The position numbers and the translations under genes were made by a program. Below, in pieces: positions 31,541 to 63,890 of a DNA stretch of 64,000 nucleotides; position 1 is the stretch's first letter, and each line of letters starts with the position of its first letter. The DNA comes from Bacillota bacterium (GTDB lineage Bacteria > Bacillota > Clostridia > Lachnospirales > Lachnospiraceae). Below the pieces are notes generated by a model. The model saw only the letters and a list, made by a program, of their open reading frames with translations. It made no database searches and was not told the origin of the DNA. Location of the stretch: assembly GCA_902363515.1 (NCBI GenBank), contig CABJAN010000005.1, positions 116,751 through 180,750 of the forward strand. The letters run 5' to 3'.

Positions 31541-31628
31541 AAATTTAAAGATATGCAAAACATCAATAATAGGATAGAATAGGAACTAACAAGAAGTGAA
31601 AAAATGAACACAGAAAGGATACATGCTT

Positions 31629-32009
31629 ATGGAATTAAACAGAGTACACCATATTGCTATCATTGGCAGTGATTATGAAATATCAAAACATTTTTACGTG
31701 GATCTTCTGGGATTTCAGGTGATTCGGGAACATTACAGGGAAGATCGCGAGGACTATAAAATTGATCTGCAGTTAGGGGACATGGAATTAGAATTGTTTA
31801 TCAGAAAGGATTGCCCCAAAAGACCCAGCTATCCCGAAGCCTATGGTCTCAGGCATCTGGCTTTTCATGTGAAATCAGTGGAAGAGACCGTAAAAGAATT
31901 AAATACACTTGGAATTGAGACAGAACCGATTCGGATAGATTTCTTTACCGGGAAAAAGATGACCTTTTTCCAGGATCCGGATGGGCTGCCATTGGAGTTG
32001 CATGAATAA
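31629..32009 (+). CDS. VOC-family protein (glyoxalase-like, YaeR/GloA2 type)
   Basis: 126 aa. One VOC module pair: the metal-ligand strand LNRVHHIAIIGSDYEISKHFY (His), LQLGDMELELFI (Glu), LRHLAFHVKSVEETV (His) and FFQDPDGLPLELHE (Glu), as in the lactoylglutathione-lyase-like YaeR group. These are often of unknown substrate in anaerobes that lack glutathione. Two starts are possible: ATG 31623, only 4 nt after AAAGG, or ATG 31629, 10 nt after; the latter is chosen. Followed by the amidohydrolase gene after 27 nt. Confidence 0.85.
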   Translation: MELNRVHHIAIIGSDYEISKHFYVDLLGFQVIREHYREDREDYKIDLQLGDMELELFIRKDCPKRPSYPEAYGLRHLAFHVKSVEETVKELNTLGIETEPIRIDFFTGKKMTFFQDPDGLPLELHE

Positions 32010-32036
32010 AAAATATCAGGAAAAGAGGTTGGACAC

Positions 32037-33641: not shown

Positions 33642-33647
33642 GGACTG

Positions 33648-33716
33648 TCTCATTTTCTGCACTTTTTATTGCTTTTCCTTTTGAATCAGTATAAAATTAG
33701 TTGTAAAAGTGAGACA
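33648..33716. repeat. 69-bp element with terminal inverted repeats, copy B
   Basis: Terminal inverted repeats GTCTCATTTT / AAAAGTGAGAC. Left end GTCTCATTTTCTGCACTTTT and right end GTTGTAAAAGTGAGACAAAA match copy A (21472-21536) at most positions; the central 25 nt differ. It starts 6 nt after the amidohydrolase stop and ends 13 nt before the next gene. Confidence 0.7.
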
Positions 33717-33729
33717 AAAGGAGGAGCAT

Positions 33730-34062
33730 ATGGAAGAAAAAGACAGGGAGCGTTTTGCCTTTTTATACTTATGTAAGGAAGAAGACAGAGAACTGCTGCT
33801 GGGACGCAGAAAAATGGAATTTTCTGATTTTGACCGACTGACTTACCTTGCAGATTTTTTCGGATTTGAAGCCTATGCCCTGGAAATCTGGAATCAGTTT
33901 GCCGGAAATTTTGAAAAAGAATTTCAGCAGATGGAAGAGGAATTGGAACAAGAGGAAAAAGTTTCTTGTCTGGAACAGAGAAAGCTTCAGGACAGATGGA
34001 TTTCAGACTTTTCCAAAGAAGTGGCAAATGAAGCCCTCAGGAAGAGTTTACAGAAAGAATAG
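33730..34062 (+). CDS. Small Glu-rich protein of unknown function
   Basis: 110 aa from ATG 33730 after AAAAGGAGGAG. Highly charged and helical: MEEKDRERFAFLYLCKEEDREL, KMEFSDFDRLTYLADFFGF, then a coiled-coil-like Glu/Gln stretch (EFQQMEEELEQEEK). No known motif, signal or TM segment. It stands alone between the repeat element (copy B) and a terminator. The good RBS and composition argue that it is real. Confidence 0.7.
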   Translation: MEEKDRERFAFLYLCKEEDRELLLGRRKMEFSDFDRLTYLADFFGFEAYALEIWNQFAGNFEKEFQQMEEELEQEEKVSCLEQRKLQDRWISDFSKEVANEALRKSLQKE

Positions 34063-34070
34063 TAACGAAG

Positions 34071-34116
34071 AAAGGGAATGCTATTTCGGAACTTTACCGG
34101 AATGACATTCCCTTTT
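34071..34116. terminator. Bidirectional terminator
   Basis: 10-bp stem AAAGGGAATG/CATTCCCTTT with an inner small hairpin in the loop and a short T-run (TTTT) on the plus strand. It sits between the small Glu-rich gene and the convergent GH31 gene. Confidence 0.7.
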
Positions 34117-34142
34117 GTAAACATAAAGCAGGATTTTCTTTT

Positions 34143-36590: not shown

Positions 36591-36785
36591 AAATCAATCC
36601 TCCTCAATACTTACATGATTTTTCTGATGTCATTATAGTATAAAAAAATGAAAAATTCTCCTAATAATCTTAGAAAAAACTATAGTATTTTGACTTTTTT
36701 CCAAGCTGTGAGGACCTTCTGGCAGAGGATGAAGTTTTATGATAAAATGGGTGTCAAAGGATGTATGGGAAAAGGGGAGAAATTT

Positions 36786-38114
36786 ATGAAAACACTGGGA
36801 ATTGATATAGGAACAACAACCATCAGCGCAGTGGTGGCAGACAGCAAAAACCAGGAGGTAATACAGGCATATACGGTGGAGAACCAGAGCTTTTTAAAGA
36901 CAGAAAGGGTCTGGGAGAAGGTGCAGAATCCACAGTCTATCCTTGAGAAAACCAGCGCACTTCTGGAGAATATTTTAAAGGAATATTCAGATATCAAAGC
37001 CATTGGACTGACAGGGCAGATGCATGGAATCCTTTATGTGGATGCACAGGGAAAAGCAGTAAGTCCTCTGTATACCTGGCAGGATGGAAGAGGGAATCAG
37101 CCGCTTCTTAGAGGGAAAAGTCTTTGCCAGATTTTACAGGAGGATTATGGGAAAAAGGCATATACAGGCTATGGTCTGATTACTCATTTGTATCAGTTTA
37201 TGACACAGAAAATCCCAAGAGAGGCAGTGAGCTTTTGTACTATTATGGACTATCTGGGTATGGCGCTTACAGGACAAAGGGAAGCTCTGGTACATGCCAG
37301 CAATGCGGCAGGTTTCGGGCTGTTTGATGTACAAAAGGGCTGTTTTTATGAGGAGATTCTGGAACAAATGGGAGTTGGAAACGCTATGCTGCCAAGGGTT
37401 ACAGGAGAGCTTTCCATACTGGGAACCTATAAAGAAATTCCGGTTTGTACAGCCATTGGAGATAACCAGGCCAGCTTCTTAGGTTCTGTGAAAAATCCGG
37501 AAAATAGTATTTTACTGAATATGGGAACCGGAGGACAGGTATCGGTATGCTCCGAAGATTTTTATGAGGCCGGAGAAATTGAGGCAAGACCTTATTTGGG
37601 AAACAAATATCTTCTGGTTGGTTCTTCCCTGTGCGGAGGAAGAGCGTATGCTTTACTGGAAGGCTTTTTCCGTCAGTATGCAGAAGCCCTGGGCGTTTCA
37701 GGGGTGAATCATTATGCAGTGATGGAACATCTGCTTCGTACAAAAAAAGTGGAAGAAGAAGGTCTGCATATAGATACCAGATTTTCCGGCACCAGAGAAC
37801 ATCCTGATAAAAGGGGCAGTATTCAGAATATCGGAATTGATAATTTTACTCCGGCTTCTTTTGTTTTGGGAACACTGGAGGGCATGACAGAAGAACTGTA
37901 TGAGATGTATGTGGAAATGAAGAAGGGATTGAAATGTCCAAGAACCCAGATTGTTGGTTCCGGGAATGGAATTCGCAGAAATTCCTGTTTACAGCAGCTT
38001 ATGAAACAGAGATTTTCCATGGAGTTTTATCTGGCAGAGCACACAGAGGAGGCGGCTCTTGGGGCAGCCATGGCAGGGGCAATGGCTGTGAACCAGAGGG
38101 GGATTTTCAGATGA
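36786..38114 (+). CDS. FGGY-family carbohydrate kinase (sedoheptulokinase-like)
   Basis: 442 aa from ATG 36786 after AAAGGGGAGAAATTT; a longer in-frame reading from 36648 crosses the intergenic region with no RBS. ASKHA fold: phosphate-1 loop LGIDIGTTTISAVV, the sugar-contact segment LTGQMHGILYVD, CTIMDYLGMALTG, adenosine-side CTAIGDNQASFLGSV and GTGGQVSV, and GSGNGIRRN near the end. The GQMHG motif and length fit sedoheptulokinase/xylulokinase-like members; the sugar remains open. The last base pairs overlap the aminotransferase-like gene (ATGA), so both are translated together. Confidence 0.88.
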   Translation: MKTLGIDIGTTTISAVVADSKNQEVIQAYTVENQSFLKTERVWEKVQNPQSILEKTSALLENILKEYSDIKAIGLTGQMHGILYVDAQGKAVSPLYTWQDGRGNQPLLRGKSLCQILQEDYGKKAYTGYGLITHLYQFMTQKIPREAVSFCTIMDYLGMALTGQREALVHASNAAGFGLFDVQKGCFYEEILEQMGVGNAMLPRVTGELSILGTYKEIPVCTAIGDNQASFLGSVKNPENSILLNMGTGGQVSVCSEDFYEAGEIEARPYLGNKYLLVGSSLCGGRAYALLEGFFRQYAEALGVSGVNHYAVMEHLLRTKKVEEEGLHIDTRFSGTREHPDKRGSIQNIGIDNFTPASFVLGTLEGMTEELYEMYVEMKKGLKCPRTQIVGSGNGIRRNSCLQQLMKQRFSMEFYLAEHTEEAALGAAMAGAMAVNQRGIFR

Positions 38115-47754: not shown

Positions 47755-50031
47755 ATGACAGTTGAAGAATGGCTTGGCCGGGGAAATCAGCTTGGAACAG
47801 ATATATGGACGAAAAAATATTGTAATGAAGGTGAAGATTTTGAGACCTGGGTGCAGAGAATAAGCGGCGGAAATGAAGAAATCGGGAAGTATATAAAAGA
47901 GAAAAAGTTTTTATTCGGAGGCAGGATTCTGTCTAATCGCGGATTGAACAGACAGGGAAGAAAGGTGACTTATTCCAACTGTTATGTTATTGCGCCGCCG
48001 GAAGATGAAATTGAAGATATTTTTGAATGTGCAAAAAAACTGGCACGTACTTACAGCTATGGAGGAGGCTGTGGAATTGATATTTCCAAGCTTAGTCCAA
48101 GAGGAGCGAAAATTAACAATGCAGCCAAGGAAACCAGCGGGGCAGTGTCCTTTATGGAGCTGTATTCCCTGGTAACCGCCTTAATCGGACAGAATGGAAG
48201 ACGTGGAGCCCTTATGATTTCTATTGACTGTTCTCACCCGGATGTGGCAGAATTTATTGAGTTAAAAACAGACCTGGAGAAAGTGACAAAGGCCAATATT
48301 TCCATCCGCATTCATGAAGATTTCATGGAAGCGGTGAAGAAAAATGAAGATTACCTGCTTCACTACACCAGAGAAACCACAGGAGAGGTGATTGAGAAAA
48401 AGGTAAATGCTAGAGACCTGTTTCGCAGAATTACAGAAACCAACTGGGACTATGCAGAGCCCGGCGCGCTGTTCTGGGATCGTGTGGAAAGCTGGAATCT
48501 TTTGAGCAATACCAAAGAATTTTCCTATGCAGGTGTGAATCCCTGTGCAGAGGAACCTCTTCCGGCAGGAGGAAGCTGTCTTCTTGGAAGCATGAACCTT
48601 TCCGCTTTTGTAAAGAATCCCTTTACAGACGAAGCATATTTTGATTTTGATGAATTTAAACAATGCGTACAGGCTTCTGTAAAAGCCTTAAATGAGGTGC
48701 TGGAAGAAGGTCTGCCTTTGCATCCGCTTCCGGAACAGAGGGAAAGCGTAGAGCAGTGGAGACAGATTGGTCTTGGCATTATGGGACTTGCAGATGCGCT
48801 GTTGAAATTGGGATTAACCTATGGAGAAGAAGACGCAGTTCAGATGTGTGACAAGATTGGATTTGCCATGGCAGATACCGCTATTGCCGCATCTGCAAAG
48901 CTGGCAAAGCAGTTAGGAGCCTTCCCCAAATGCAATACAGAAGAGATTATGAGCACCCCGTATTTCCTGGCAAATACCACAGAAATGACAAGGGAATTAG
49001 TAAGAAAATATGGTCTTAGAAACTCACAGCTTCTTACTATTGCGCCTACAGGAACCCTGTCTACCATGCTGGGAATTTCAGGAGGAATTGAGCCTGTTTA
49101 TGCGAATTATTATGAGCGCAAAACAGAATCTCTTCATGGAACCGATGTGTATTATAAAGTATATACAAAAATCGTAGAAGACTATATGAAGCAGTTTTCT
49201 CTTACCAGTGACAAAGACCTTCCAGACTATTTTGTCACAGCTATGACCCTGGATTACCGTCAGAGAATTGATATGCAGGCAATCTGGCAGAACCATATTG
49301 ACGCTTCTATCAGTTCTACGGTAAACGTGCCAAACAGCTTTACTGTAGAGGAAACAGAAAGCCTGTATACCTATGCGTTTGAGCAGGGATTAAAAGGGAT
49401 TACCATTTTCAGAGACGGATGTAAACGTGTGGGAATTTTGAATACAAAAGAGACAAAAACCGTAACTGCAGGTGACGGACTTGGCAGGGGCGATATCCTT
49501 CTGGTAACGGATGATGTCGTTGGCAAGAAGCGGAAACTCATGACAGGATGCGGAAGTCTTCACTGTATTGCCCTGTTTGATCCCCATACAGGAGCTTTGC
49601 TGGAAACCTATTTAAGCAAAGGCTCTACAGGAGGATGCAACAACTTCATGGTGGGGCTTTCCAGAATGATTTCCATTAGCGCAAGAGGCGGAATTTCCAT
49701 TGAAACCATTGTAGATCAGTTAAATTCCAGCGGTTCCTGCCCTTCCTATACAGCCAGAAAAGTCACAAGAAAGGACACCAGCAAAGGGGCATGCTGTCCT
49801 ATGGCGGTAGGAAATGCACTAATGGATATGTATAAGGAAATGCAGGAAGAATTAAGCCAGAAGCATCAAAAAGAAGAGGTTGTAAATGTGAAAAAAGCTC
49901 CAAAACCAAAGGCAGTACCAGCGAAAGAGAGCTCTGAAAACAAGACCTATTGTCCAGAATGCGGAGAACCCTTAAACTTTGAAGAAGGATGCAATATCTG
50001 CAAAAACTGCGGATGGAGCAAGTGCCACTAA
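47755..50031 (+). CDS. nrdJ: Ribonucleotide reductase, class II (adenosylcobalamin-dependent)
   Basis: 758 aa. Reduces ribonucleotides to deoxyribonucleotides using B12. Features: VTYSNCYVIAPPEDE (redox Cys), GGGCGIDISKLSPRGA, the active-site region VNPCAEEPLPAGGSCLLGSMNL (catalytic thiyl Cys and Glu), LLTIAPTGTLSTMLGISGG, and the glycyl-independent C-terminal redox part with CPECGEPLNFEEGCNICKNCG, a zinc-finger-like/dithiol tail. The N-terminal ATP cone is missing, as in the NrdJ subgroup. RBS AGGAGGAAATACT. Own terminator follows. Confidence 0.93.
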   Translation: MTVEEWLGRGNQLGTDIWTKKYCNEGEDFETWVQRISGGNEEIGKYIKEKKFLFGGRILSNRGLNRQGRKVTYSNCYVIAPPEDEIEDIFECAKKLARTYSYGGGCGIDISKLSPRGAKINNAAKETSGAVSFMELYSLVTALIGQNGRRGALMISIDCSHPDVAEFIELKTDLEKVTKANISIRIHEDFMEAVKKNEDYLLHYTRETTGEVIEKKVNARDLFRRITETNWDYAEPGALFWDRVESWNLLSNTKEFSYAGVNPCAEEPLPAGGSCLLGSMNLSAFVKNPFTDEAYFDFDEFKQCVQASVKALNEVLEEGLPLHPLPEQRESVEQWRQIGLGIMGLADALLKLGLTYGEEDAVQMCDKIGFAMADTAIAASAKLAKQLGAFPKCNTEEIMSTPYFLANTTEMTRELVRKYGLRNSQLLTIAPTGTLSTMLGISGGIEPVYANYYERKTESLHGTDVYYKVYTKIVEDYMKQFSLTSDKDLPDYFVTAMTLDYRQRIDMQAIWQNHIDASISSTVNVPNSFTVEETESLYTYAFEQGLKGITIFRDGCKRVGILNTKETKTVTAGDGLGRGDILLVTDDVVGKKRKLMTGCGSLHCIALFDPHTGALLETYLSKGSTGGCNNFMVGLSRMISISARGGISIETIVDQLNSSGSCPSYTARKVTRKDTSKGACCPMAVGNALMDMYKEMQEELSQKHQKEEVVNVKKAPKPKAVPAKESSENKTYCPECGEPLNFEEGCNICKNCGWSKCH

Positions 50032-53416: not shown

Positions 53417-53460
53417 AAAAGAGTTGCCTTATTTGAGCTGTATAGGGCAACTCTTTTATT
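53417..53460. terminator. Bidirectional terminator
   Basis: 12-bp perfect stem AAAAGAGTTGCC/GGCAACTCTTTT with a 17-nt loop, ending in TTTTATTT. Serves the GNAT gene and the convergent LacI-kinase gene. Confidence 0.88.
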
Positions 53461-55361
53461 TAAAGAACAAGTAGTTCTGGTTCCACAAGACGAATATGAT
53501 TTTCCAGAGAAATACGATCAACCAGAGCTGGTACTACACCAGTTCTGGAAATGCAAAAGCCAGCCGCATAAGATGCGATTTTTATAGCTTTTATTAAAGG
53601 ATATCCTTCTGTAAGGTAGGAGGCCAGTGCCGCGATAAAAGCATCTGCGCCGCCGGTTGAATCAATAGAAGGAAAGTCAGCCGCCGGAAAATAGCAATTG
53701 TGTGTGGCAGATTTTAAATAGCATCCATTATGTCCAAGTGTAATAATTACAACAGGACACCCGCTTTCATAAAAGAAATCAGCCTGTTTCTCTATGGTGG
53801 TTTCTTCTGGACATAAAAGTGCGGCTTCATTTTTGTTTGGAACGAAAATATCCGTATGACAGAGTAAGGCATCAGGAAGATGTTTCAGTGCGGCAGGTTT
53901 TACAATGGTTTTTGCATGATGCTTTTGAGCAATGCGGGCAGCCTGGATACAAGTTTCTTCTGGAATTTCTGTTGAAATCAGACAATATCCGCAGCCCTCC
54001 ATTAAATGCTCTTTAGAAAGAACATCTTCTGGCGTTAAATTTTGGTTTGCGCCAGGAAGAAGGGTGATGCAGCTCTCTGCATTTTTTTCTACAAAGATGT
54101 ATGCTTTTCCGGTAATTGCATTAGAATCCCTACGCAGTCCTTGCGAAACCACCTGCTCTTTTTTTAAAGTATCGTAAATCATAGCAGAATCATAATCATT
54201 TCCGATTTTTCCGATAATAAAAACTTCTCTGCCTAATTTTGCAGCGCCTATGGCCTGGTTTGCACCTTTTCCGCCTAAAGCAATGGAAGAGGCATTGGTT
54301 ACGGTTGTGCTTCCGGGGGAGGGGAATTCATCTACATTTAATGTGATATCTGTATTAATACTTCCAACAGATACAATTTTTTTATAGCGGCATGCCGGTG
54401 GTTTGTCTAAACTTTCCTCATGGTCTAATAACAAATCTTCTGGTGTAAAAAGAGAAAACTGTTCTGCTTCCCGAAACTCGCATAAAGAAATTAAGTTTTC
54501 GCAAACCTTAGAGCCAAAACGCTCATAAGGAATGCGCAGAGAAGAAATTCTGGGAAAACAAATAGCTTCCCGGGCATCTTCTCTAAGGCTTACCAGAGAA
54601 ATATCAGAAGGAATGTTGCGGTGAAACCGGTCAGCTTTCTCATAAAAATCTAAAGCCGATTCAAAATGTGTACTAAGAATTCCGGTGAATCTTCCGAAAG
54701 TTATTTTTTGGTGAAGTTCTGGATCAGAAATAAAAAGCTTCATATCTTCCGAATAGGGGATTTCATGGTCAAATAAACATTTTCGAAAACCATCAAATAC
54801 CATAGAAGAGCGCAGACTATCCGGCTTCATCAGGCAGGCAATATGTGTATGTTGATAGTCCAGAAGCTTTTGAGTGGCAGTATAGCCCATCTGTACAAAA
54901 TCCAGACAATGGGAGCGGGCAGAGGAGCTGTTTATATAAGATACAAAAATCTCCTGCTCCTTAAAATAATGCTCATATTCACTGCTGCGTTCTGATACTG
55001 GTTCCCAGATAACACCGTCAATTTTATGCTTACAAAGCGTTGTAATATTTTTTAACTCTTTCTCAGGGCTATCCATACTATTGCAGATTACAATGGTATA
55101 GCCATGTTTTTGCGCTGTTGCCATAATGCCATTTAACAAAAGATTATCCTGGGAAGTATGTTTTAAAAGCACACCTATAAGAAAAGTTTTTGCTGTAGAC
55201 GCATTTTTAGCAGTTCCATAGGGAGTATAGTTATATTCTTTTACAATTTTCAGAACACGATTTCTTGTCTCAACATTTATATTTTCAGCTTTATTATTCA
55301 CAATCTTCGAAACAGTTGATATAGAAACACCAGCCAGATTTGCTATTTCTTTAATAGTCAC
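53460..55361 (-). CDS. LacI-family repressor fused to a ribokinase (PfkB) domain
   Basis: 633 aa from GTG 55361, 8 nt behind GTGAGG; another GTG at 55370 overlaps the RBS. N-terminal LacI HTH: VTIKEIANLAGVSISTVSKIVNN and hinge. A periplasmic-binding-protein-like sensor domain follows to about residue 320. Residues about 326-630 are a whole ribokinase: KKIVSVGSINTDITLN opening, GGKGANQAIGAAKLG (sugar/ATP Gly-Gly motif), STGGADAFIAAL (catalytic Asp kept, Gly-Ala order changed), and VRISRTG-type end. One chain thus combines DNA binding, a ligand pocket and a kinase. It is divergent from a ribokinase/ABC/ADP-ribosylglycohydrolase operon and most likely represses it. Whether the kinase is active or only senses is not known. 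Confidence 0.9.
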   Translation of the reverse strand: MTIKEIANLAGVSISTVSKIVNNKAENINVETRNRVLKIVKEYNYTPYGTAKNASTAKTFLIGVLLKHTSQDNLLLNGIMATAQKHGYTIVICNSMDSPEKELKNITTLCKHKIDGVIWEPVSERSSEYEHYFKEQEIFVSYINSSSARSHCLDFVQMGYTATQKLLDYQHTHIACLMKPDSLRSSMVFDGFRKCLFDHEIPYSEDMKLFISDPELHQKITFGRFTGILSTHFESALDFYEKADRFHRNIPSDISLVSLREDAREAICFPRISSLRIPYERFGSKVCENLISLCEFREAEQFSLFTPEDLLLDHEESLDKPPACRYKKIVSVGSINTDITLNVDEFPSPGSTTVTNASSIALGGKGANQAIGAAKLGREVFIIGKIGNDYDSAMIYDTLKKEQVVSQGLRRDSNAITGKAYIFVEKNAESCITLLPGANQNLTPEDVLSKEHLMEGCGYCLISTEIPEETCIQAARIAQKHHAKTIVKPAALKHLPDALLCHTDIFVPNKNEAALLCPEETTIEKQADFFYESGCPVVIITLGHNGCYLKSATHNCYFPAADFPSIDSTGGADAFIAALASYLTEGYPLIKAIKIASYAAGFCISRTGVVPALVDRISLENHIRLVEPELLVL

Positions 55362-55397
55362 AAGGAACACCTCACTTTGTTTGTGGTTTTATCAATA

Positions 55398-55425
55398 TTA
55401 TTAACTATCTTAAAGGGTTTGTCAA
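55398..55425 (-). promoter_or_regulatory. Promoter of the LacI-ribokinase gene
   Basis: Minus strand TTGACA (55420-55425), 16-nt spacer, TAATAA (55398-55403), 36 nt before GTG 55361. Confidence 0.65.
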
Positions 55426-55476
55426 TATAAATGGAAACTTAATGAAATTGTGCAAAACTAACAAGAAATGATTTTA

Positions 55477-55488
55477 AAAAATGTTTTC
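55477..55488 (+). promoter_or_regulatory. Candidate LacI-type operator O1
   Basis: AAAAATGTTTTC, near-palindromic LacI-family half-sites, reverse-complement match (11 of 12) to the second site at 55565-55576. It lies 25 nt upstream of the operon's -35. Confidence 0.55.
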
Positions 55489-55512
55489 TTTTGACAAAGA
55501 TTAAATGTAGTA

Positions 55513-55541
55513 TTGACAATCTGATAGAGCAGAGATAAAAT
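55513..55541 (+). promoter_or_regulatory. Promoter of the ribokinase/ADP-ribosylglycohydrolase operon
   Basis: TTGACA (55513-55518), 17-nt spacer, TAAAAT (55536-55541): a near-perfect sigma-A promoter flanked by the two operator-like sites. Confidence 0.85.
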
Positions 55542-55564
55542 AACTGCATAAGAAAAAAGTTTAG

Positions 55565-55576
55565 GAAAACATTTTC
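55565..55576 (+). promoter_or_regulatory. Candidate LacI-type operator O2
   Basis: GAAAACATTTTC just after the predicted transcription start (near 55549), 88 bp from O1 centre to centre, about eight helical turns, which suits repression by looping. Confidence 0.6.
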
Positions 55577-55603
55577 TTTACTATCAGCAAGGAGGGACTG
55601 AAT

Positions 55604-56527
55604 GTGGGAAAAGGGATTCTGATTGTAGGAAGCCTGAATATGGATATTGTTGTAGAAATGACCAAGATGCCAGAATTAGGAGAGACCGTTATGGGAAAAC
55701 ATCTTTCCTATATACCAGGAGGAAAGGGGGCGAATCAGGCATGTGCTGCTGGAAAATTAGGTGGGCATGTGACCATGTTGGGGTGTGTTGGTAATGATAA
55801 TTTTGGTACAAGGCAGATACAACTTTTAAAGGAATCTCATGTATGTATGGAGTATGTAGATGTGAGACAGGAGGAACCTACGGGAACTGCCGTTATTTAT
55901 GTGGATGGAACAGGAGCAAACAGTATTGTCGTGATTCCAGGAGCAAATGCATGTTGCGATATTCAGTATTTGAAAGAACACGATGAATTGTTTCAAAACT
56001 GTAGTTATGCCATGTTTCAAATGGAGATACCCAAAGAGGCTGTCTATTATGGTATTGCCAGAGCAAAAGAATTAGGTAAAACCACAATTTTGAATCCGGC
56101 ACCCGCGCCGGAAGCATTACCGGAAGAAATCTGGGAGAAAATTGATTTTTTTACACCTAATGAGACAGAGCTGGCAAAATTAGCCGGATTAAAAGAAATG
56201 GATGAAAGAAGCATAAGGAGGGGAGCAAGAAAAATTTTGGCAAAGGGAGTGAAACAGGTTCTTGTAACTATGGGTTCCAAAGGCGTACTTTGGGTAAATG
56301 ATAAAACAGAACAGATCTTTCCGGCCAGAAAGGTGGAAGCTGTTGATACAACAGCAGCAGGAGACTGTTTTAACGGAGCCTTTGTGACAGCTTTACAACA
56401 GGGATATTCCATAGAGGATGCCATTACTTTTGCGAATTTGGCTTCTTCGATAGCGGTAACCAGAAAAGGGGCGCAAAGCTCCATTCCAGAAAGAGATGAG
56501 ATTTATTCTATTTGTGGGGCAAATTGA
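55604..56527 (+). CDS. rbsK: Ribokinase
   Basis: 307 aa from GTG 55604, 7 nt after GGAGGG (the ATG at 55602 is out of frame). Ribokinase landmarks: ILIVGSLNMDIVVEM, IPGGKGANQACAAGKLGG, NPAPAPEALPEEIW, TPNETELAKLAG, and catalytic AVDTTAAGDCFNGAF with the Asp base. It phosphorylates ribose to ribose-5-phosphate. First gene of the operon; unlike most rbsK genes it is not linked to rbsD or an rbsACB importer. The main difference from the kinase at 61970 is that this one keeps the full ribokinase signature. Confidence 0.93.
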   Translation: MGKGILIVGSLNMDIVVEMTKMPELGETVMGKHLSYIPGGKGANQACAAGKLGGHVTMLGCVGNDNFGTRQIQLLKESHVCMEYVDVRQEEPTGTAVIYVDGTGANSIVVIPGANACCDIQYLKEHDELFQNCSYAMFQMEIPKEAVYYGIARAKELGKTTILNPAPAPEALPEEIWEKIDFFTPNETELAKLAGLKEMDERSIRRGARKILAKGVKQVLVTMGSKGVLWVNDKTEQIFPARKVEAVDTTAAGDCFNGAFVTALQQGYSIEDAITFANLASSIAVTRKGAQSSIPERDEIYSICGAN

Positions 56528-56561
56528 GTAATAAAAATGTATAAGTAGAGGAGGAAGAAAC

Positions 56562-57929
56562 ATGAAAAATATGAAAAAAATTATGGCGCTTTGCCTGGCC
56601 GGAGCAATGACATGTACAGCAGTTGCATGTGGGAATAGTAATGAAAAAGAAAGTTCAAAAGAACAAAAAGAAAGTGAAAATGCTTCTGAAAAACAAAAAG
56701 ATGGAGAAAAAGAAAAACTGGTAATTTCCTGTTATCTTGCAGATGACAGTCAAGTTGCAGTAAGAGAAAAATATATAGATGAACCTTTAAAAGAGGCATT
56801 TCCTGATGTAGATATTGAGATTAAAATGTATAATGACAGGCAGAGTCTTCAGGTGGAAGTCACTGGAGGTGGTGGACCAGATATTTTGGATTTAGATGGA
56901 CCAACAGATGTTGCAGAATTTGCAAAAGCAGAACGTGTTTTAGATCTTGGGCCATATGCAGAAAAATATGGATGGCAGGATATGTTTTATGATTGGGCTT
57001 ACAATAGCTGCTTTTATAATGAAAAATTGTACTCTTTGCCAACAGCTTTTGAGGGTATGGTGATGTACTATAATATGGATGTGTTTGAAGAAAATAACTG
57101 GGAGATTCCAACTACAAAAGAGGAATTAGAAGCGCTGATGCCAAAGATTAAAGAAGCTGGAATTATTCCGATTTCTTTTGGAAATTCTAATTATCAGGGA
57201 GCTGTGGACTGGCTATATTCTACATTTACAAGTTGCTACGGAGGCCCAGAAGCTGTAAAGGCAGCTATGGAAGGTACAGGTAAATTTACAGATGATGCTA
57301 TTAAAGATTCTCTGCAGGTGATGGTTGACTGGTGGGAGAAAGGATGGCTTGGAGATAATGCTTCACAGTCTATTACAAATGAGGATATGATGGCATTTTT
57401 TGCAGAAGGAAGAGCAGCCATGATGATTAATGGAACCTGGGCTTCTAATCAGCTTTTAGCTACATATCCCGATTGCAATTGGGACTCTGAGATGCTTCCC
57501 GCAGATGCAGAACATGGACCTATTCTTCCCTTTGCAACAGGTGGAGGATACGCTATTAACGCAAATTCAAAAAATGCAGACTTGGCAGCAGAAGTATTAA
57601 ATTATTTATTTACTTCATTGGATAGGCATTATCAATCCATTAATGAAGCAGGATACCAGCCATATCCATTAAAAGAATTTGATCTTAGCCGATTAGAAGG
57701 AATGGACGAAAAATTATTAGATCAGTATACATTGCTGATGGATGCACAGACAAATAACCAGATTGGGTATTGTTCCTGGACATTCTATCCTTCAGAAATG
57801 AGAGTTTATATGAATGAAAATACGGATGCGCTGTTTTTAGGACAACTTAGTTTAGATGATTATCTAAAAGAAGCCCAGTCCTATATTGATGCAGCAAGAG
57901 AAGAAGGAGCTATTCCAGTTCTTCCATAA
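56562..57929 (+). CDS. ABC importer solute-binding lipoprotein (family 1)
   Basis: 455 aa. Signal with lipobox TAVACGN (lipid Cys23), then a Glu/Lys/Ser-rich linker to about residue 50, and the bilobed type I binding domain: VISCYLADDSQVAVREKYI, GGGGPDILDLDGP, SLPTAFEGMVMYYNMDVFEENN, FFAEGRAAMMINGTWASNQL, and FATGGGYAINANSKN typical of CUT1 sugar-binding proteins (MsmE/UgpB type). It hands the substrate to the two permeases downstream. The ligand may be a ribosylated or sugar compound, judged only from the neighbours. Confidence 0.9.
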   Translation: MKNMKKIMALCLAGAMTCTAVACGNSNEKESSKEQKESENASEKQKDGEKEKLVISCYLADDSQVAVREKYIDEPLKEAFPDVDIEIKMYNDRQSLQVEVTGGGGPDILDLDGPTDVAEFAKAERVLDLGPYAEKYGWQDMFYDWAYNSCFYNEKLYSLPTAFEGMVMYYNMDVFEENNWEIPTTKEELEALMPKIKEAGIIPISFGNSNYQGAVDWLYSTFTSCYGGPEAVKAAMEGTGKFTDDAIKDSLQVMVDWWEKGWLGDNASQSITNEDMMAFFAEGRAAMMINGTWASNQLLATYPDCNWDSEMLPADAEHGPILPFATGGGYAINANSKNADLAAEVLNYLFTSLDRHYQSINEAGYQPYPLKEFDLSRLEGMDEKLLDQYTLLMDAQTNNQIGYCSWTFYPSEMRVYMNENTDALFLGQLSLDDYLKEAQSYIDAAREEGAIPVLP

Positions 57930-57942
57930 CAAAGAAGAAAGG

Positions 57943-57968
57943 TGGAGCTGTTCTTTGACAGCTCCACT
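57943..57968 (+). other. Intergenic stem-loop between binding protein and permease
   Basis: Perfect 9-bp stem GTGGAGCTG/CAGCTCCAC with an 8-nt loop and no T-run. Such hairpins often protect the upstream message so that more binding protein than permease is made. Confidence 0.75.
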
Positions 57969-57992
57969 GAAAAGATAGGGGGCAGAAAAACT

Positions 57993-58880
57993 ATGAATGC
58001 AGCAAAAAAAAGACATATTGTTCCATACTTATTTGTCCTTCCAGCATTTATCATTCATTTATGTGTTGTAACAGGACCAGCACTTAGTACGTTAGTTATG
58101 TCGTTATTTGACTGGAATGGTATGGGAAATGCAACTTTCATTGGGCTTGATAATTTTAAAGAAATTTTTAAAGATCCCATTGTAAAATTGTCTGTGATAC
58201 ATAATATAGAATGGCTTTTGATTTTTATTACTGTGCCTTTAATTTTGGGATTTATTGTAGCGATTTTGGTAAGTCAGTTAAGGCTGAGTCAGATGTTTTT
58301 TCGGACAATTTATTTTATTCCTTATGTAATTTCAGCAGCTGTAGCAGGGAAAATATGGACTGCTTATATGAATCCATATTACGGATTAAATACAGTATTT
58401 GATAAATTAGGATTAGATAAATTAGCAGATGTTTTATGGCTTGGAAATCCTAAAATTGCATTGTTTTCTGTAGCTTTTGTAGACAACTGGCATTGGTGGG
58501 GATTTATTATGGTTTTATTTTTAGGAGCTTTACAACAGGTAGATCCTACACTTTATGAAGCTGCCAGAGTAGATGGTGCGAATCGTTTTCAGGAGTTAAT
58601 TCATGTGTCTATTCCAGGAATTCGTCAGACCATTGCTTTTGTGTTAATTATGACAATTATGTGGTCATTTTTGACTTTTGATTATGTATATATTATGACT
58701 AATGGAGGACCGGCAAATGCAACGGAAATTATGTCAACATATATCTATAAGAATGCATTTGTAAAATATCGCGCTGGCTATGCCAATGCACTTTGTGTTA
58801 TTCAAAGTGGTATTTGTATTATCTTATATTTTATTCAGAAATATGCAAGTAAAAAAGGAGGAATGGAAGATGAATCATAG
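57993..58880 (+). CDS. CUT1 ABC importer permease 1 (MalF/MsmF-like)
   Basis: 295 aa from ATG 57993 after AGGGGGCAG; the longer reading to 57942 runs through the stem-loop and is rejected. Six TM helices. The EAA loop YEAARVDGANRFQELIHVSIPGI near residue 190, which docks the ATPase, is intact; FDWNGMGNATFIGLDNFKEIF near the start is usual for sugar permeases. It overlaps permease 2 by 11 bp. No ATPase gene in the operon, so a shared MsmX/MsmK-type ATPase must power it. Confidence 0.92.
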   Translation: MNAAKKRHIVPYLFVLPAFIIHLCVVTGPALSTLVMSLFDWNGMGNATFIGLDNFKEIFKDPIVKLSVIHNIEWLLIFITVPLILGFIVAILVSQLRLSQMFFRTIYFIPYVISAAVAGKIWTAYMNPYYGLNTVFDKLGLDKLADVLWLGNPKIALFSVAFVDNWHWWGFIMVLFLGALQQVDPTLYEAARVDGANRFQELIHVSIPGIRQTIAFVLIMTIMWSFLTFDYVYIMTNGGPANATEIMSTYIYKNAFVKYRAGYANALCVIQSGICIILYFIQKYASKKGGMEDES

Positions 58881-59718
58881 TGTTAAAAAAGGACCAAAGA
58901 CTTATATCATGAAAACAATTTCTATGACTTTTCTTATACTTATGGCTTTATTTGCTTCGGTTCCTCTTATTCAAGTGCTGTTAAATTCTTTTCGCACAGA
59001 TAGAGAAGTAAAATCTATGCCACTTGGATTGCCAAAGGAATGGGTATTTAATAACTTTTCAGAAACCTGGAAAATTGGCGGTTATGCAACTGCCTATTTT
59101 AATAGTTTATTAACAGCGTTTGTAGTCATTGTTGTTGTATTGGTAGTAGTCGGATTGGGCGCTTATGCTATTTGCAAATTAAATTTTAAATTGCGAGGTT
59201 TTTTTACAGCATACTTTTTTGTGGCTATTTCACTTCCTAATTTTTTGTATATTGTTCCAGACTATTTTGTAATGAATAAACTGGGGCTGATAGATACCAG
59301 ATGGAGTTTAATGATTGTATATACAGCAATGCAGATTCCTTTTAATATGTTGCTGCTTAGAACTTTTTTGACAGGGATTCCAAGGGAATTAGAGGAAGCA
59401 GCTAAAATTGACGGATGCAATGAACTACAGAGTTTTCTTAGAATTACATTACCTATTGCCAAGCCTATGTTTTTGACCATTGCGATTCTTGTTTTTGTAA
59501 ACGTATGGAATGAATTTTTGTGGTCGAATACATTTATTACATCAGAACCACTGAAATTAGTAGCTACCAGATTTGTAAAATTTACAGGTGAGTATGGTTC
59601 TAATATGGCAAGAATTTATACAGCAAGTGTAATTACTATTGCGCCGGTTGTCATTTTATATCTGTTTTTTAGCAGAAAATTTATTGAAGGAATGACGAGT
59701 GGAAGTGTAAAAGGATAA
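58870..59718 (+). CDS. CUT1 ABC importer permease 2 (MalG/MsmG-like)
   Basis: 282 aa from ATG 58870 (RBS AAAGGAGGAATGG); the reading from 58780 is an overlap artefact. Six TM helices. VPLIQVLLNSFRTDREV opening, EAA loop EEAAKIDGCNELQSFLRITLPIAKP, and C-terminal RKFIEGMTSGSVKG (the usual end of CUT1 permeases). Partner of permease 1. Followed by the large ADP-ribosylglycohydrolase gene after 13 nt. Confidence 0.92.
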   Translation: MNHSVKKGPKTYIMKTISMTFLILMALFASVPLIQVLLNSFRTDREVKSMPLGLPKEWVFNNFSETWKIGGYATAYFNSLLTAFVVIVVVLVVVGLGAYAICKLNFKLRGFFTAYFFVAISLPNFLYIVPDYFVMNKLGLIDTRWSLMIVYTAMQIPFNMLLLRTFLTGIPRELEEAAKIDGCNELQSFLRITLPIAKPMFLTIAILVFVNVWNEFLWSNTFITSEPLKLVATRFVKFTGEYGSNMARIYTASVITIAPVVILYLFFSRKFIEGMTSGSVKG

Positions 59719-59731
59719 TGGGAGGAATGTT

Positions 59732-61870
59732 ATGAAAGCAGAATATATTGAGGGGATTTATGCAGGATGGCTGGCTAAAATTATCGGTATTCGTTTAGGT
59801 GCACCTGTTGAGGGGTGGACTTATGAGAAAATCAAAAATATTTATGGAGAATTAACAGATTATCCTGTTGATTACCAGGAATTTGCAGCAGATGATGACA
59901 GCAATGGTCCTCTTTTTTTCCTAAAAGCTTTGGAAGATGGACGTCATGGATTTGATTTGCAAGCGCAAGATGTGGCAGAAGCATTGTTAAACTACGCCCC
60001 CTTTGAACATGGATTTTTCTGGTGGGGAGGATATGGGATTTCAACAGAACATACTGCATATCTGAATTTAAGAAATGGAATCCCTGCGCCTAGAAGCGGA
60101 AGTATTAAACAAAATGGAAGTACTACAGCAGAACAAATTGGTGGACAGATTTTTATTGATACCTGGGGGCTTGTGACACCTGGAAATCCTGATTTGGCAG
60201 CAAAATTTGCGAAAGAGGCGGCCAGTGTAACGCATGATGGAAATGGGGTCTATGGAGGTGTTTTCGTAGCAACTTGCATTAGTTTTGCCTTTGTGGAAAA
60301 AAATATAGAAAAAATTATAGAAAAAGGTCTTTCTTATATTCCGGAAGATTGCGAATATGCGAGAGTGGTAAAGGCAGTGACTGCGTTTTATTATGAGCAT
60401 AAAGGGGAAGACTGGCGGAAAGGATTTCAATATATTTCTGAGCATTTTGGATATGATAAATATCCAGGAAACTGCCATATTATTCCCAATATTGCAGTGA
60501 TGATCTTAGCGCTGCTGTATGGAGAAGGAGATTTTTCCAATACATTGAATATTTGTAATATGTGTGGTTGGGACACAGATTGTAATGTGGGAAATGTTGC
60601 CACGATTATGGGAGTTCGCAATGGCCTGGAGGGAATTGATGATAATAAATGGAGAAAACCAATTCATGATTTTCTTGCATGCTCCAGTGTAGTTGGCTCT
60701 CTTAATATTATGGACATTCCTTTTGGCGCTTTGTATATTGCAAAATTGGCATATGAAGTGGCAGGGGAAGAGATGCCGGAACCATGGAAAACATTAGCAC
60801 AGAAACAGATAGATAGCTGTCATTTTGAATATCCTGGTTCCACACATGCCATTCGGATTCGTGTGGAAGGGCTGGATGAGCGTGCTGTAGCCATAAGAGA
60901 GTGTGAAGTTCTTAATACAGAAGAAACAGCTGCATCGGGAAACAGAAGTTTGAAATTTGTAGCAAAACCAGTAGAGCCAGGGGAAAATATTTACGTGTAT
61001 AAAAAGACGTATTATACTCCTGATGATTTTCATGATAGCCGTTATGACCCTAGTTTTTCTCCTTTAGTGTATCCTGGACAAAGAATTCATGGCAGCGCAT
61101 TTTTGCCTGTATATGGACAGCAGGCACAGGTAAGCCTTTATGCAAGGGAGGCACATACTGGGAAGAAGTATTATAGCGAAAAAAGAAAGCTGGAAAAAGG
61201 AAAATGGGAAGATTTGGTTTATGAGATTCCAGCTTTGGAGGCAGGATGTATAGATGAAATCGGTTTTTGTTTTCATGTAGAGGGGACACATACGCAAGTA
61301 TTTGATTTTGTAGGTATGATTGATGATCTATATGCGGAGGGTAAGGCAGATTATACAATAGAATTTCGGAAGGAAAAGGAAGAAGTGTGGACCGGATTAC
61401 ACAGAGAAATTAGCCAATGCACAAAGCTAAAAGGCTTGTCTTATCTGGAAGAAGGATATTTACATTTATCTTGTTCTGATTTTGGAGAAATGTATACAGG
61501 ACGGCATGACTGGGAGGACTACAAAGCAGAGTTTTTTATAACGCCTCTTACCGGAGAACATCATTTTGTAAATGCCAGAGTCCAGGGGGCAATTCGTTCT
61601 TATGCAGCTGGTTTATTGCCAAACGGACAGTTTGGAATTTTGAAAAATGACAATGGGTATGAGACTCTAAAAGCTGTGGACTATCCATGGAAGCCAGGAG
61701 AAGAATACCGAATTCAGATTCAGGTTTTGGGGAATAAAATAGAAGCAGAAATAAATGGAGAAAAGAAAGTATCAGTAGAAGACCAGGAGCATATTTACTG
61801 GAAAGGAAGTATTGGCATTTCAGCAGCTAAAGGAAGTCATATGAAATGCCGCAAAATTATAGTGTCATAA
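59732..61870 (+). CDS. ADP-ribosylglycohydrolase-family enzyme with large C-terminal extension
   Basis: 712 aa. Residues 1-345 are an ADP-ribosylglycohydrolase (DraG/ARH) fold: YIEGIYAGWLAKIIGIRLGAPVEGW, metal-binding DDDSNGP (Asp54-56) and CGWDTDCNVGN (Asp281, Asp283), and GNCHIIPNIAVMILALLYGEGDF. Residues about 370-535 are a beta-rich domain, and about 540-712 look like a concanavalin/DUF1080-type sandwich (GLLPNGQFGILKNDNGY, VLGNKIEAEINGEKKV). There is no signal peptide. The family cleaves N- or O-glycosidic bonds to ribose (ADP-ribosyl protein, or nucleosides for the YegU-like group). The C-terminal extension may bind the rest of the substrate. Sits between the importer and a PfkB kinase. 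Confidence 0.88.
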   Translation: MKAEYIEGIYAGWLAKIIGIRLGAPVEGWTYEKIKNIYGELTDYPVDYQEFAADDDSNGPLFFLKALEDGRHGFDLQAQDVAEALLNYAPFEHGFFWWGGYGISTEHTAYLNLRNGIPAPRSGSIKQNGSTTAEQIGGQIFIDTWGLVTPGNPDLAAKFAKEAASVTHDGNGVYGGVFVATCISFAFVEKNIEKIIEKGLSYIPEDCEYARVVKAVTAFYYEHKGEDWRKGFQYISEHFGYDKYPGNCHIIPNIAVMILALLYGEGDFSNTLNICNMCGWDTDCNVGNVATIMGVRNGLEGIDDNKWRKPIHDFLACSSVVGSLNIMDIPFGALYIAKLAYEVAGEEMPEPWKTLAQKQIDSCHFEYPGSTHAIRIRVEGLDERAVAIRECEVLNTEETAASGNRSLKFVAKPVEPGENIYVYKKTYYTPDDFHDSRYDPSFSPLVYPGQRIHGSAFLPVYGQQAQVSLYAREAHTGKKYYSEKRKLEKGKWEDLVYEIPALEAGCIDEIGFCFHVEGTHTQVFDFVGMIDDLYAEGKADYTIEFRKEKEEVWTGLHREISQCTKLKGLSYLEEGYLHLSCSDFGEMYTGRHDWEDYKAEFFITPLTGEHHFVNARVQGAIRSYAAGLLPNGQFGILKNDNGYETLKAVDYPWKPGEEYRIQIQVLGNKIEAEINGEKKVSVEDQEHIYWKGSIGISAAKGSHMKCRKIIVS

Positions 61871-61881
61871 AGTAAGATAGC

Positions 61882-61940
61882 ATTCTCTTGCAGAGAATTG
61901 CGCAATGGGGAAAGGGAATGCCAAGGAGGTGTTCCCTTTT
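61882..61940 (+). other. Two intergenic hairpins before the PfkB kinase gene
   Basis: ATTCTC-TTGCA-GAGAAT (61882-61898) and AAAGGGAA...TTCCCTTT (61911-61939) with a T4 end. The second is terminator-like and may limit expression of the last two genes of the operon; it shares its stem words with the terminator at 34071. Confidence 0.6.
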
Positions 61941-61969
61941 GTACGCGTAGCAGAAAGGAGAAAAATATT

Positions 61970-62896
61970 ATGGAAAAACAGGTTTGGGGAATTGGGACGC
62001 TGGCAATGGATGTACTTATGAAAGTAGATGCTTTGCCAAAGGAAGATGGTTTTTGTATGGTAGAGAGTACGGAACATCAACCAGGAGGAAGTGGTACCAA
62101 TGTTATAGTACAAATGGCCAGATTGGGAGCAGTCTGTGGTTATACAGGTGCTGTAGGTGATGATAAATTAGGACAATGTGTGCTGGAAAGTCTCAGACGG
62201 GAAAAGATTGATATAGAGCATATGAAAGTGAAACAAGGTAGAAGCACCCTGCATACAGAAATTGTTGTGGATAGAACTGGTGCAAAATTTATTATGCTGA
62301 ATATGGGAGATGCATTTGGTGCGTTAAAGCAAGAAGAAATTCCGCAGGAGGAAATTAAAAATTGTGAAGTTTATTACACAGATTTGCTTCCAAAAGGGCC
62401 AGCTCTTGCTGGACTTATAGTTGCAAAAAAGGCTGGTGTTACAACTGCTTTTAACATGCAGGTTGGATTGGGAACCATGGAAGGATTGGGATTTTCAAAA
62501 CAGGAAATTCTAAATGCGCTTACTTATGTAGATATTTTTGCCCCATGTTCAGAGGGATTGCATGCACTGACAGGAACACAGGATTTGGAAGCATGTGTTA
62601 AGATATTGAGACATTATTGTAAAGGGATTTTTTTATTTACGCAGGGTAGCAAAGGTTCTGTTGCATTTGATAGAAATAATAGAAAAATTGTAATTCCCAG
62701 CAAAAAAATACAGGTAGTTGATACTACCGGAGCAGGGGATTCTTATATAGGAAGTTTTTTGTTTAGTTATTGTTTGAAAAAGAAAAACTTGAAAAAATCT
62801 ATGGAATTTGCTACAGCTTGTGCAGCTTACACCTGTACAGGTATAGGAGCCAGATTTTCGCCGACTTGGAAGGAGGTAGAACATGAACTTGATTGA
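61970..62896 (+). CDS. PfkB-family sugar/nucleoside kinase
   Basis: 308 aa from ATG 61970 after AGAAAGGAG. QVWGIGTLAMDVLMKVDALPKEDGF opening, HQPGGSGTNVIVQMARLG (in place of GGKGxN), TGAVGDDKLGQCVLESL, FTQGSKGSV, and catalytic VVDTTGAGDSYIGSFLF with the Asp base. The N-terminal Gly motif differs from ribokinase, so it likely acts on another alcohol: perhaps a nucleoside, an aglycone-bearing sugar, or a second hydrolysis product. YegV in E. coli is a kinase of the same family beside an ADP-ribosylglycohydrolase. Overlaps the next gene by 14 bp. Confidence 0.88.
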   Translation: MEKQVWGIGTLAMDVLMKVDALPKEDGFCMVESTEHQPGGSGTNVIVQMARLGAVCGYTGAVGDDKLGQCVLESLRREKIDIEHMKVKQGRSTLHTEIVVDRTGAKFIMLNMGDAFGALKQEEIPQEEIKNCEVYYTDLLPKGPALAGLIVAKKAGVTTAFNMQVGLGTMEGLGFSKQEILNALTYVDIFAPCSEGLHALTGTQDLEACVKILRHYCKGIFLFTQGSKGSVAFDRNNRKIVIPSKKIQVVDTTGAGDSYIGSFLFSYCLKKKNLKKSMEFATACAAYTCTGIGARFSPTWKEVEHELD

Positions 62897-63890
62897 TCGG
62901 AAAAGAATGAAAGGTGCCTTGATTGGAGCAGCTTATGGTGACGCTTTTGGAATGCCTGCAGAGATGTGGACACCAGAAAAGATTAAGCGTGTATATGGAC
63001 ATGTGGAGGAATTTTTACCAGGTCATCCGGAACATGAAATTTCCAGGGGGTTTGCGGCTGGTGAGGTGACAGATGATACGGAAAATATGATTTTGGTAAT
63101 AGAAATGCTAGAAGAGAATGGTGGCAAAGTAGATCCTTGGGTTTGGGTAAAAAAATTGCAGAAGTGGGTACAAGCGGAAACAAAAAGTAAACAAGTTATA
63201 GGTCCCAGTACAGCATCAGCTTTTCAGCTCTTGAAAGAAGGAGTTCCTATAGAGATAACCGGAAAAAAAGGTGGTACAAATGGAGGGGCAATGAAAATCC
63301 TTCCAGTGGGGCTTGTATATGCGGGAAAATCTAAGGAAGAACTGGTAGAACAGGTAGAGCAGCTGTGCATGCCTACTCATAATACGAACTGTGCTATTGC
63401 AGGAGCAGCGGCTGTTGCGGCAGCAGTTTCAAAGGCTGCAGAAGGAGAAGAAAATTTGGAGACAATACTTCGTTATAGCATAGATGCAGCGAGACTGGGA
63501 GAAAAACAAGGATATGAAATTTGCTCTGCATCCGTTCCAAGACGGATAGAAATGGCGATTGAAATAGCAAAAGAGCCGAAAGAACCGGAGATGATTTTAC
63601 AAAGAATTTATGATTCTATTGGAACTGGCTTGGCTGCATCTGAGAGTATTCCAAGTGCGTTGGCACTGGTACAGTTGTCTAAAGGAGAGCCTAATCTATG
63701 TGCCAGATATGCTGCAAATATAGGCGGAGATACAGACACCATCGGAGCTATGGCTTGCGGAATTTGTGGTGCTTATAGAGGAGAAATGGTATTTGACAAA
63801 AAAGAAGTACAGTTATTAGAAAAGGTAAACCATGTTTCTTTTGAAAAACTTACAAATTCCATAGAGAAAGCGATTGCCCAAATTGTCTAA
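62883..63890 (+). CDS. ADP-ribosylglycohydrolase-family enzyme, single domain
   Basis: 335 aa. Compact ARH/DraG fold with the classical motifs: RMKGALIGAAYGDAFGMPAEMW, metal ligands in EVTDDTENM (Thr63-Asp65), GGAMKILPVGLVY, and ANIGGDTDTIGAMACGICGAYRG near residue 285 (dinuclear metal site). The length fits YegU/DraG-type hydrolases of about 330 aa. It overlaps the PfkB gene by 14 bp and ends the operon. Two different members of this family in one operon imply two related bonds or two steps. Confidence 0.92.
   Translation: MNLIDRKRMKGALIGAAYGDAFGMPAEMWTPEKIKRVYGHVEEFLPGHPEHEISRGFAAGEVTDDTENMILVIEMLEENGGKVDPWVWVKKLQKWVQAETKSKQVIGPSTASAFQLLKEGVPIEITGKKGGTNGGAMKILPVGLVYAGKSKEELVEQVEQLCMPTHNTNCAIAGAAAVAAAVSKAAEGEENLETILRYSIDAARLGEKQGYEICSASVPRRIEMAIEIAKEPKEPEMILQRIYDSIGTGLAASESIPSALALVQLSKGEPNLCARYAANIGGDTDTIGAMACGICGAYRGEMVFDKKEVQLLEKVNHVSFEKLTNSIEKAIAQIV

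Follow-up and report, generated by a model that had tools for sequence, protein, structure and literature searches.

Why would a bacterium encode two ADP-ribosylglycohydrolase (ARH)-fold proteins in one operon with a sugar importer and ribokinase-like proteins? The question is raised by a divergent locus at positions 53460-63890 of a 64,000-nucleotide stretch of DNA from a Bacillota bacterium of the Lachnospiraceae (contig CABJAN010000005.1; the whole stretch is referred to as the window), in which the gene for a LacI-ribokinase fusion protein on the minus strand lies opposite seven forward genes running from ribokinase to ARH2. We suggest, with a probability of roughly 0.7, that this operon is an inducible system for riboside scavenging, in which a riboside would be imported and hydrolysed by the two ARH-fold proteins, ARH1 and ARH2, and the ribose converted to ribose 5-phosphate. 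A riboside function is the most likely one, and it gains independent support from the same type of regulator adjoining nucleoside hydrolases elsewhere. The reading as a whole draws on genomic context, namely on the gene set, its conservation, the domain and fold assignments and the shared regulator type.

The operon recurs in other genomes

A first-pass annotation had placed an operon of eight genes at this locus. The eight open reading frames (ORFs) are present at these positions, and all score above the Pfam cut-offs for the families named, which bears out the locus and the gene set:

53460..55370, minus strand: LacI-type repressor (DNA-binding and sugar-binding domain) fused to a ribokinase-like PfkB domain (Pfam)
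55604..56527, plus strand: ribokinase RbsK (TIGR02152; Pfam PfkB)
56562..57929, plus strand: CUT1-type substrate-binding protein, probable lipoprotein (SBP_bac_1, 100 bits)
57993..58880, plus strand: CUT1 permease 1 (BPD_transp_1; ATG at 57993, the listed ORF beginning with GTG at 57942)
58870..59718, plus strand: CUT1 permease 2 (BPD_transp_1; 282 amino acids (aa) from the ATG at 58870, the listed ORF beginning at 58780)
59732..61870, plus strand: ARH1, 712 aa (ADP_ribosyl_GH, 201 bits)
61970..62896, plus strand: PfkB-family kinase 2 (PfkB2), not a ribokinase equivalog (PfkB, 155.6 bits)
62883..63890, plus strand: ARH2, 335 aa, YegU-type ADP-ribosylglycohydrolase-fold protein (ADP_ribosyl_GH, 220 bits)

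The starts of permease 1 (~57993), permease 2 (~58870) and PfkB2 (61970) were reset from the lengths of relatives and local start codons. With these starts, permease 2 has the same length of 282 aa as in loci L002, L004, L005 and L006, PfkB2 has 308 aa, a frequent length among the relatives listed, and successive forward genes are spaced by 34, 63, -11, 13, 99 and -14 nucleotides (nt). By Pfam, none of the eight proteins is a nucleoside hydrolase of family PF01156.

The neighbourhoods of ARH1 were compared in the best 80 of 306 relatives from one scan of genome contigs. Neighbouring gene types were assigned by BLAST in loci of at most 22 kb, with some contigs as short as 3.5 kb, and ORFs were called by a greedy longest-ORF method, which gave no ARH1 call in four of the 80 (L051, L054, L062 and L075). 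The full eight-gene set is present in 6/80 loci (L001, L002, L003, L017, L018 and L024), the hosts being Pelethocola, Blautia parvula (L002), a Lachnospiraceae metagenome-assembled genome (MAG), two Anaerocolumna, among them Anaerocolumna sedimenticola (L018), and Lachnoclostridium sp. Marseille-P6806. Four loci (L004, L005, L006 and L020) have the set minus only the PfkB2-ARH2 pair, and four others (L045, L067, L069 and L071) have the order fusion, binding protein, permease 1, permease 2, ARH1 and RbsK on a single strand. The recurrence of the full set is beyond chance; co-occurrence in other genomes, a check named in the first-pass annotation, is conserved.

Among the 80 loci, the fusion is present in 19, a ribokinase in 34, a nucleoside hydrolase in 10, an adenosine deaminase in five, a Bmp importer protein in six and PNP in three. 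At least one of these six ribose or nucleoside gene types is found in 47/80 loci compared with 1/20 random regions of 20 kb from five related genomes (Fisher p 8e-6, a value overstated by kinship), and the sole match in a random region (L156) is probably a piece of the L103 fusion gene because L156 begins inside that gene. CUT1 genes adjoin ARH1 in 16 of the 19 fusion-bearing loci. The adenosine deaminase gene lies directly before ARH1 in all five loci that carry it (L059, L064, L065, L073 and L079), with an overlap of 4 nt in L065. ARH1 and a small ARH protein share a locus in 10/80 cases, a pairing that would be consistent with two bonds or with two anomers.

The same regulator type adjoins nucleoside hydrolases

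The fusion regulator was surveyed in 299 genomes of the family to which L002 belongs, an even sample of a larger set, and is matched at E <= 1e-90 in 22 of them. A PF01156 nucleoside hydrolase is encoded anywhere in the genome in 19 of these 22, within 10 kb of the fusion in 15 (0.29 expected; 0/200,000 placement simulations gave as many) and within 5 kb in eight (0.14 expected; not reached in 200,000 simulations); the simulations used rounded genome sizes, and kinship of genomes and loci inflates these values as well as the Fisher value. ARH1 lies beside the fusion in two of the remaining seven genomes, G001 and G269. The other five have neither gene nearby: in G188 and G233 the contig ends within 400 bp of the fusion start, and the others are G068, G150 and G090, the last with CUT2-like importer genes.

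The importers beside the fusion differ with the type of hydrolase. Eleven of the 15 loci with a nucleoside hydrolase score > 100 bits to PF01156, and of these eight carry Bmp, two more ABCt/BPD2 genes and one neither; the other four are weak IUNH2-type loci, three of which carry CUT1 genes.

By BLAST, the 19 ARH1 loci with a fusion contain no nucleoside hydrolase. A quick tree built from 40 fusions requires six or more switches between ARH1 and IUNH; for the ARH1 label, four changes are forced by strongly supported branches. For instance, the fusions of L001 (with ARH1) and L103 (with IUNH2) are sisters with a support of 100 and are 78% identical over 636 residues. In L103 and L105, the fusion gene is divergent from IUNH2, binding protein, permease 1 and permease 2, followed in L103 by RbsK; the binding proteins of these two loci are only 24% identical to that of the window. 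This exchange beside the regulator suggests that ARH1 takes the job of a nucleoside hydrolase.

Kinases, importer and ARH-fold proteins

RbsK scores 364.7 bits to the ribokinase equivalog TIGR02152 and passes its cut-off of 299.65, fails a second ribokinase model (NF008353, PRK11142; 313.9 bits, cut-off 341) and is 41% identical to Escherichia coli RbsK. The fusion comprises LacI (residues 5-50), Peripla_BP (78-301) and PfkB (330-613) domains. Its kinase domain (250.6 bits) and PfkB2 (139 bits) fall below the TIGR02152 cut-off, and PfkB2 was rejected as a ribokinase on this ground; it was also rejected as a YegV orthologue, because its match to E. coli YegV is mainly local and short (82 aa). 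Alignment to E. coli RbsK shows GGKGANQA conserved in the fused domain, with an aspartate at the catalytic place (GGAD for AAGD); PfkB2 has the motifs GGSGTN and GAGD. Motifs of these types have a catalytic role. Together, regulator and kinase point to ribose as a product.

By Pfam, the importer is CUT1-like (MalFG/UgpAE-type), with an SBP_bac_1 binding protein and two BPD_transp_1 permeases; import of the CUT2/RbsB type was rejected because all three proteins match CUT1 families. The binding protein and two permeases of the first-pass annotation thus stand, but as a CUT1-type importer, and no gene for its ATPase is found among the operon ORFs. Importers of this type are known that share an ATPase. 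The binding protein is probably a lipoprotein, as read from its N-terminus, and among solved chains it matches a chitin-oligosaccharide binding protein best (104 bits).

ARH1 belongs to the ARH/DraG family (PF03747) by fold and Pfam match. It has three regions: an ADP-ribosylglycohydrolase fold (1-344), a beta-strand-rich part (~375-540) and a CBM66-like domain (542-712). The predicted structure is that of an ARH fold with a C-terminal domain of CBM66 fold; the middle part (349-536) is barely covered by the VIA-align match list, a gap that is no evidence of a new fold. CBM66 binds fructofuranose, and the importer together with the CBM66-like domain suggests a substrate that is more sugar-like than a plain nucleoside.

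Residues E27, D55, D56, D281 and D283 are invariant among 52 aligned ARH1 sequences, and by this alignment D55-D56 are the vicinal metal-binding aspartates of the ARH family (52/52). The threonines of the T-D-D and D-x-D-T motifs are metal ligands as well. Both are kept in ARH2 and its 39 relatives (40/40) and in YegU, giving the motifs TDD and DTDT; the corresponding motifs of ARH1 are DDD and DTDC. In human ARH3, the vicinal aspartates are D77/D78, as given in an extract of a paper that also covers the substrates of the ARH family (PMC6501648). The nearest solved folds to the models of ARH1 and ARH2 are ARH3, DraG and MJ1187, from which ARH1 differs by the DDD and DTDC motifs, the C-terminal beta domains and the sugar-operon context. 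ARH1 as a recent duplicate of ARH2 was rejected (30% identity in a gap-rich pairwise alignment; a 279-column profile match at 23%). ARH1 relatives number 5,689 proteins at E <= 0.001, of which the best 120 were examined and which need not all form one clade. In L106 (11196-14019), adjacent ARH-like proteins of 475 and 477 aa near a LacI-ribokinase fusion and nucleoside hydrolases have NDD for DDD.

Other neighbourhoods of ARH1 relatives

In L014, L019, L029 and L031, a GH65-HAD pair precedes ARH1, and in three of these loci CUT1, Zn-ADH, xylose-isomerase-like and Gfo/Idh genes are present too (by Pfam in L031, by cluster in the others); loci of this type possibly serve a different, disaccharide-type substrate. 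An ARH1 relative lies in a run with GH38 in L042 (by Pfam), L037 and L043 (by cluster). In two Treponema MAGs (L026 and L041), ARH1 relatives lie beside purine-interconversion genes (adenylosuccinate lyase-type, IMPDH, GMP synthase C-terminal domain); in L041, the gene after ARH1 clusters with the nucleoside hydrolase of L036, and genes for IMPDH and for a protein with a GMP synthase C-terminal domain come next, and a DeoC-type aldolase gene is near the ARH1 relative in L026. In L065 (6494-10004), CobU, CobD and aminotransferase genes lead straight into adenosine deaminase-ARH1, which would fit alpha-ribazole salvage; a cobamide link was rejected, as it is seen in this single locus. Finally, in three Clostridia genomes (L060, L063 and L074), a DUF4130 protein (by Pfam in L063, by cluster in the others) is encoded directly upstream of ARH1, which is also adjoined by a protein of 434-437 aa that has no Pfam match in L063.

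Regulatory sequences and other features

The regulatory features of the operon are:

55397..55541, both strands: divergent promoter region with promoter-like sites
55513-55541, plus strand: promoter-like TTGACA-17-TAAAAT, ahead of the seven forward genes
55425-55397, minus strand: promoter-like TTGACA-17-AATAAT, ahead of the fusion gene
55478..55487: operator-like AAAATGTTTT, immediately upstream of the forward promoter
55565..55576: operator-like GAAAACATTTTC, downstream of the forward promoter and before the ribokinase start
57941..57968, plus strand: 12-bp hairpin between the binding-protein and permease genes (folding energy)

The divergent region has four promoter-like sites compared with 1.1 in shuffles. 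A near-palindrome, AAAACATTTT/AAAATGTTTT, occurs in two copies (55566 and 55478), one on each side of the forward promoter. On either strand, the 10-mer AAAATGTTTT lies within 330 bp upstream of 13/34 fusion genes (shuffled mean 0.39, maximum 3 in 300 rounds; the fusions of L122-L127 were excluded from the 34), namely of 7/20 fusions with ARH1, window included, and 6/14 others. In view of this excess, the near-palindrome may be the operator of the fusion repressor.

The hairpin (-20.7 kcal/mol for 66 nt, z -4.2, equalled in 0/200 shuffles) perhaps has a role in transcript processing or attenuation, and a possible terminator downstream of ARH2 is weak (z -1.4). A known RNA regulator was rejected, as nothing in the window matches Rfam at gathering score. 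Elsewhere in the window, GH120-type, amidohydrolase, GH31 and FGGY kinase genes (29477-38114) suggest other carbohydrate use nearby, and a ribonucleotide reductase large chain with a TSCPD domain is encoded at 47755-50031.

A model for riboside scavenging

Based on these data, we suggest the following model. The CUT1 importer, driven by an ATPase encoded elsewhere, would take up a ribose-containing conjugate. In the cytoplasm, ARH1, a metal-dependent enzyme with carbohydrate-binding-type modules, would cut the N- or O-ribosidic bond to give ribose and an aglycone, with ARH2 hydrolysing a ribosidic bond alongside it in this version of the operon; this step would be the task of the nucleoside hydrolase in the sister operons. 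RbsK would then turn ribose into ribose 5-phosphate, and PfkB2 would phosphorylate the second product or a different sugar. The LacI-ribokinase fusion would act at AAAACATTTT-type sites to keep both promoters repressed as long as neither ribose nor a product of ribose is available, and it may also be a ribose-binding or ribose-phosphorylating protein in its own right. The riboside function proposed in the first-pass annotation is thereby partly supported: a place in riboside or nucleoside catabolism stands, with the same regulator type beside nucleoside hydrolases elsewhere.

Several observations weigh against this model. The exact operator-like 10-mer is not upstream of 21/34 fusions, and both metal-site threonines are absent from ARH1, with D54 and C284 in their places in 52/52 sequences. 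ARH1 is matched at E <= 1e-100 in 9/299 survey genomes, and in these it is beside the fusion in two (G001 and G269), far from it in two (G003 and G255) and without a fusion in five. The exchange with nucleoside hydrolases is not strict because CUT1 genes, IUNH2 and ARH1 share a locus in L007, L036 and L118, with no fusion seen there, and L106 has IUNH with two ARH-like genes beside the fusion; a strict either/or of the two enzymes was therefore rejected. The loci and genomes are also related, and the counts are therefore not independent. Finally, the importer belongs to an oligosaccharide class, 33/80 ARH1 loci have none of the six gene types (some of these contigs being short), and some ARH1 relatives accompany GH65, HAD, Gfo/Idh, Zn-ADH or GH38 genes instead. 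The importer class, the 33 loci and the GH65-HAD (L031, L014, L019 and L029) and GH38 (L042, L037 and L043) loci, together with the CBM66-like domain, would also suit the degradation of a non-ribose furanoside or mixed oligosaccharide; ARH1 would then have turned into a cytoplasmic glycosidase of general use, and another sugar would be the substrate of the ribokinase-like proteins. We consider this unlikely in view of the RbsK score above the TIGR02152 cut-off, the nucleoside hydrolases near the same regulator type in 15/22 genomes and the adenosine deaminase immediately ahead of ARH1 in 5/80 loci.

Riboside scavenging also has a narrower form, in which ordinary beta-ribonucleosides are the food and ARH1 and ARH2 simply replace nucleoside hydrolases, without any special substrate. 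The exchange beside the same regulator type and the adenosine deaminase neighbours in L059, L064, L065, L073 and L079 make this a real possibility, if well short of even odds. However, the fusion loci with a strong nucleoside hydrolase mostly have Bmp (8/11) or ABCt/BPD2 (2/11) genes, CUT1 genes instead accompany three of the four weak IUNH2 loci and 16/19 fusion-bearing ARH1 loci, and L059, L064, L065 and L079 hold, in the same locus as ARH1, a nucleoside hydrolase that might already suffice for the job. A bolder and rather doubtful extension is that ARH1 is the founder of a class of catabolic ribosidases that evolved from ADP-ribosylhydrolases, with a remodelled metal site, a furanose-binding-type module and activity on ribosides beyond the reach of nucleoside hydrolases. 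Its substrates would have two ribosyl bonds or alpha linkages, e.g. 2'-O-ribosyl-adenosine from poly(ADP-ribose) or alpha-ribosides, and the large ARH with the small ARH (10/80) or with IUNH2 (L007, L036 and L118) would represent one enzyme per bond. By contrast, it is highly improbable that ARH1 and ARH2 release ADP-ribose from protein or nucleic acid targets or act as ADP-ribose-processing enzymes, with an incidental placement in a sugar operon. ARH3, DraG and MJ1187 are indeed the solved folds closest to both models, but the operon with importer and ribokinase is conserved, ARH1 has a carbohydrate-binding-type domain and an altered metal-site motif, and no ADP-ribosyltransferase or NUDIX family was found in the eight window and 40 neighbour proteins scanned.

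Relation to known systems

The closest relatives of the operon are the 15 loci with fusion and PF01156 (L103-L110, L113-L115, L123 and L125-L127), which share the fusion type; another ribokinase-like ORF is present in 14/15 and ABC importer genes in most, and in L103 and L105 the CUT1 importer is arranged as in the window. They differ in that a nucleoside hydrolase is present there and ARH1 in the window, and no PfkB2-ARH2 pair was seen in them.

The first-pass annotation had compared the operon to E. coli yegTUV, and the comparison holds for ARH2, which is YegU-type over its full length (35% identity over 324 aa), but only poorly for ARH1 (24% to YegU) and for the kinase. In E. coli, repression of yegT, yegU and yegV, genes without clear function, is attributed to GgaR/YegW with ADP-glucose as proposed effector in PMC10819704. 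Both systems have an ARH gene beside a PfkB kinase gene and a transporter nearby; unlike in the window with its ABC importer, the transporter YegT is of the MFS type, the regulator YegW/GgaR is GntR-type, and the yeg stretch examined has neither ARH1 nor a ribokinase. The window operon is thus, with its ABC importer and a PfkB2 that aligns to YegV mainly over 82 aa, not a yegTUV system.

A ribose-scavenging locus of Bacteroides thetaiotaomicron was reportedly described by Glowacki et al. in 2020, and loci of this type may include ARH genes. An extract of PMC10434189 lists a ribokinase, SusCD-type proteins and a nucleoside hydrolase together under BT2804 of B. thetaiotaomicron. By its gene list, this system looks close to the window operon: a ribokinase and a nucleoside hydrolase are encoded with uptake genes, uptake there, unlike in the window, being of the TonB/SusCD outer-membrane type. 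A Bifidobacterium longum rbsK cluster with a nucleoside hydrolase is likewise discussed in PMC13011590. No description of the present gene set was found in the literature searched, whose partial coverage makes this weak evidence of absence. In the first-pass annotation no published pathway with all these parts was known; the operon is not of a wholly new kind, the layout of L103 and L105 being nearly the same. Rather, these comparisons suggest that it is a variant form of nucleoside or ribose scavenging with ARH-fold enzymes in the place of the nucleoside hydrolase.

ARH-fold proteins are usually annotated as ADP-ribosylglycohydrolases. Through this operon and its regulator, ARH1 relatives become linked to ribose scavenging, and their candidate substrates narrow to a short list. 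If the model is true, some "ADP-ribosylglycohydrolases" in gut-type bacteria would be nutrient-harvesting ribosidases, and the use of the ARH fold in a sugar-import operon hints at a little-studied route of ribose harvest.

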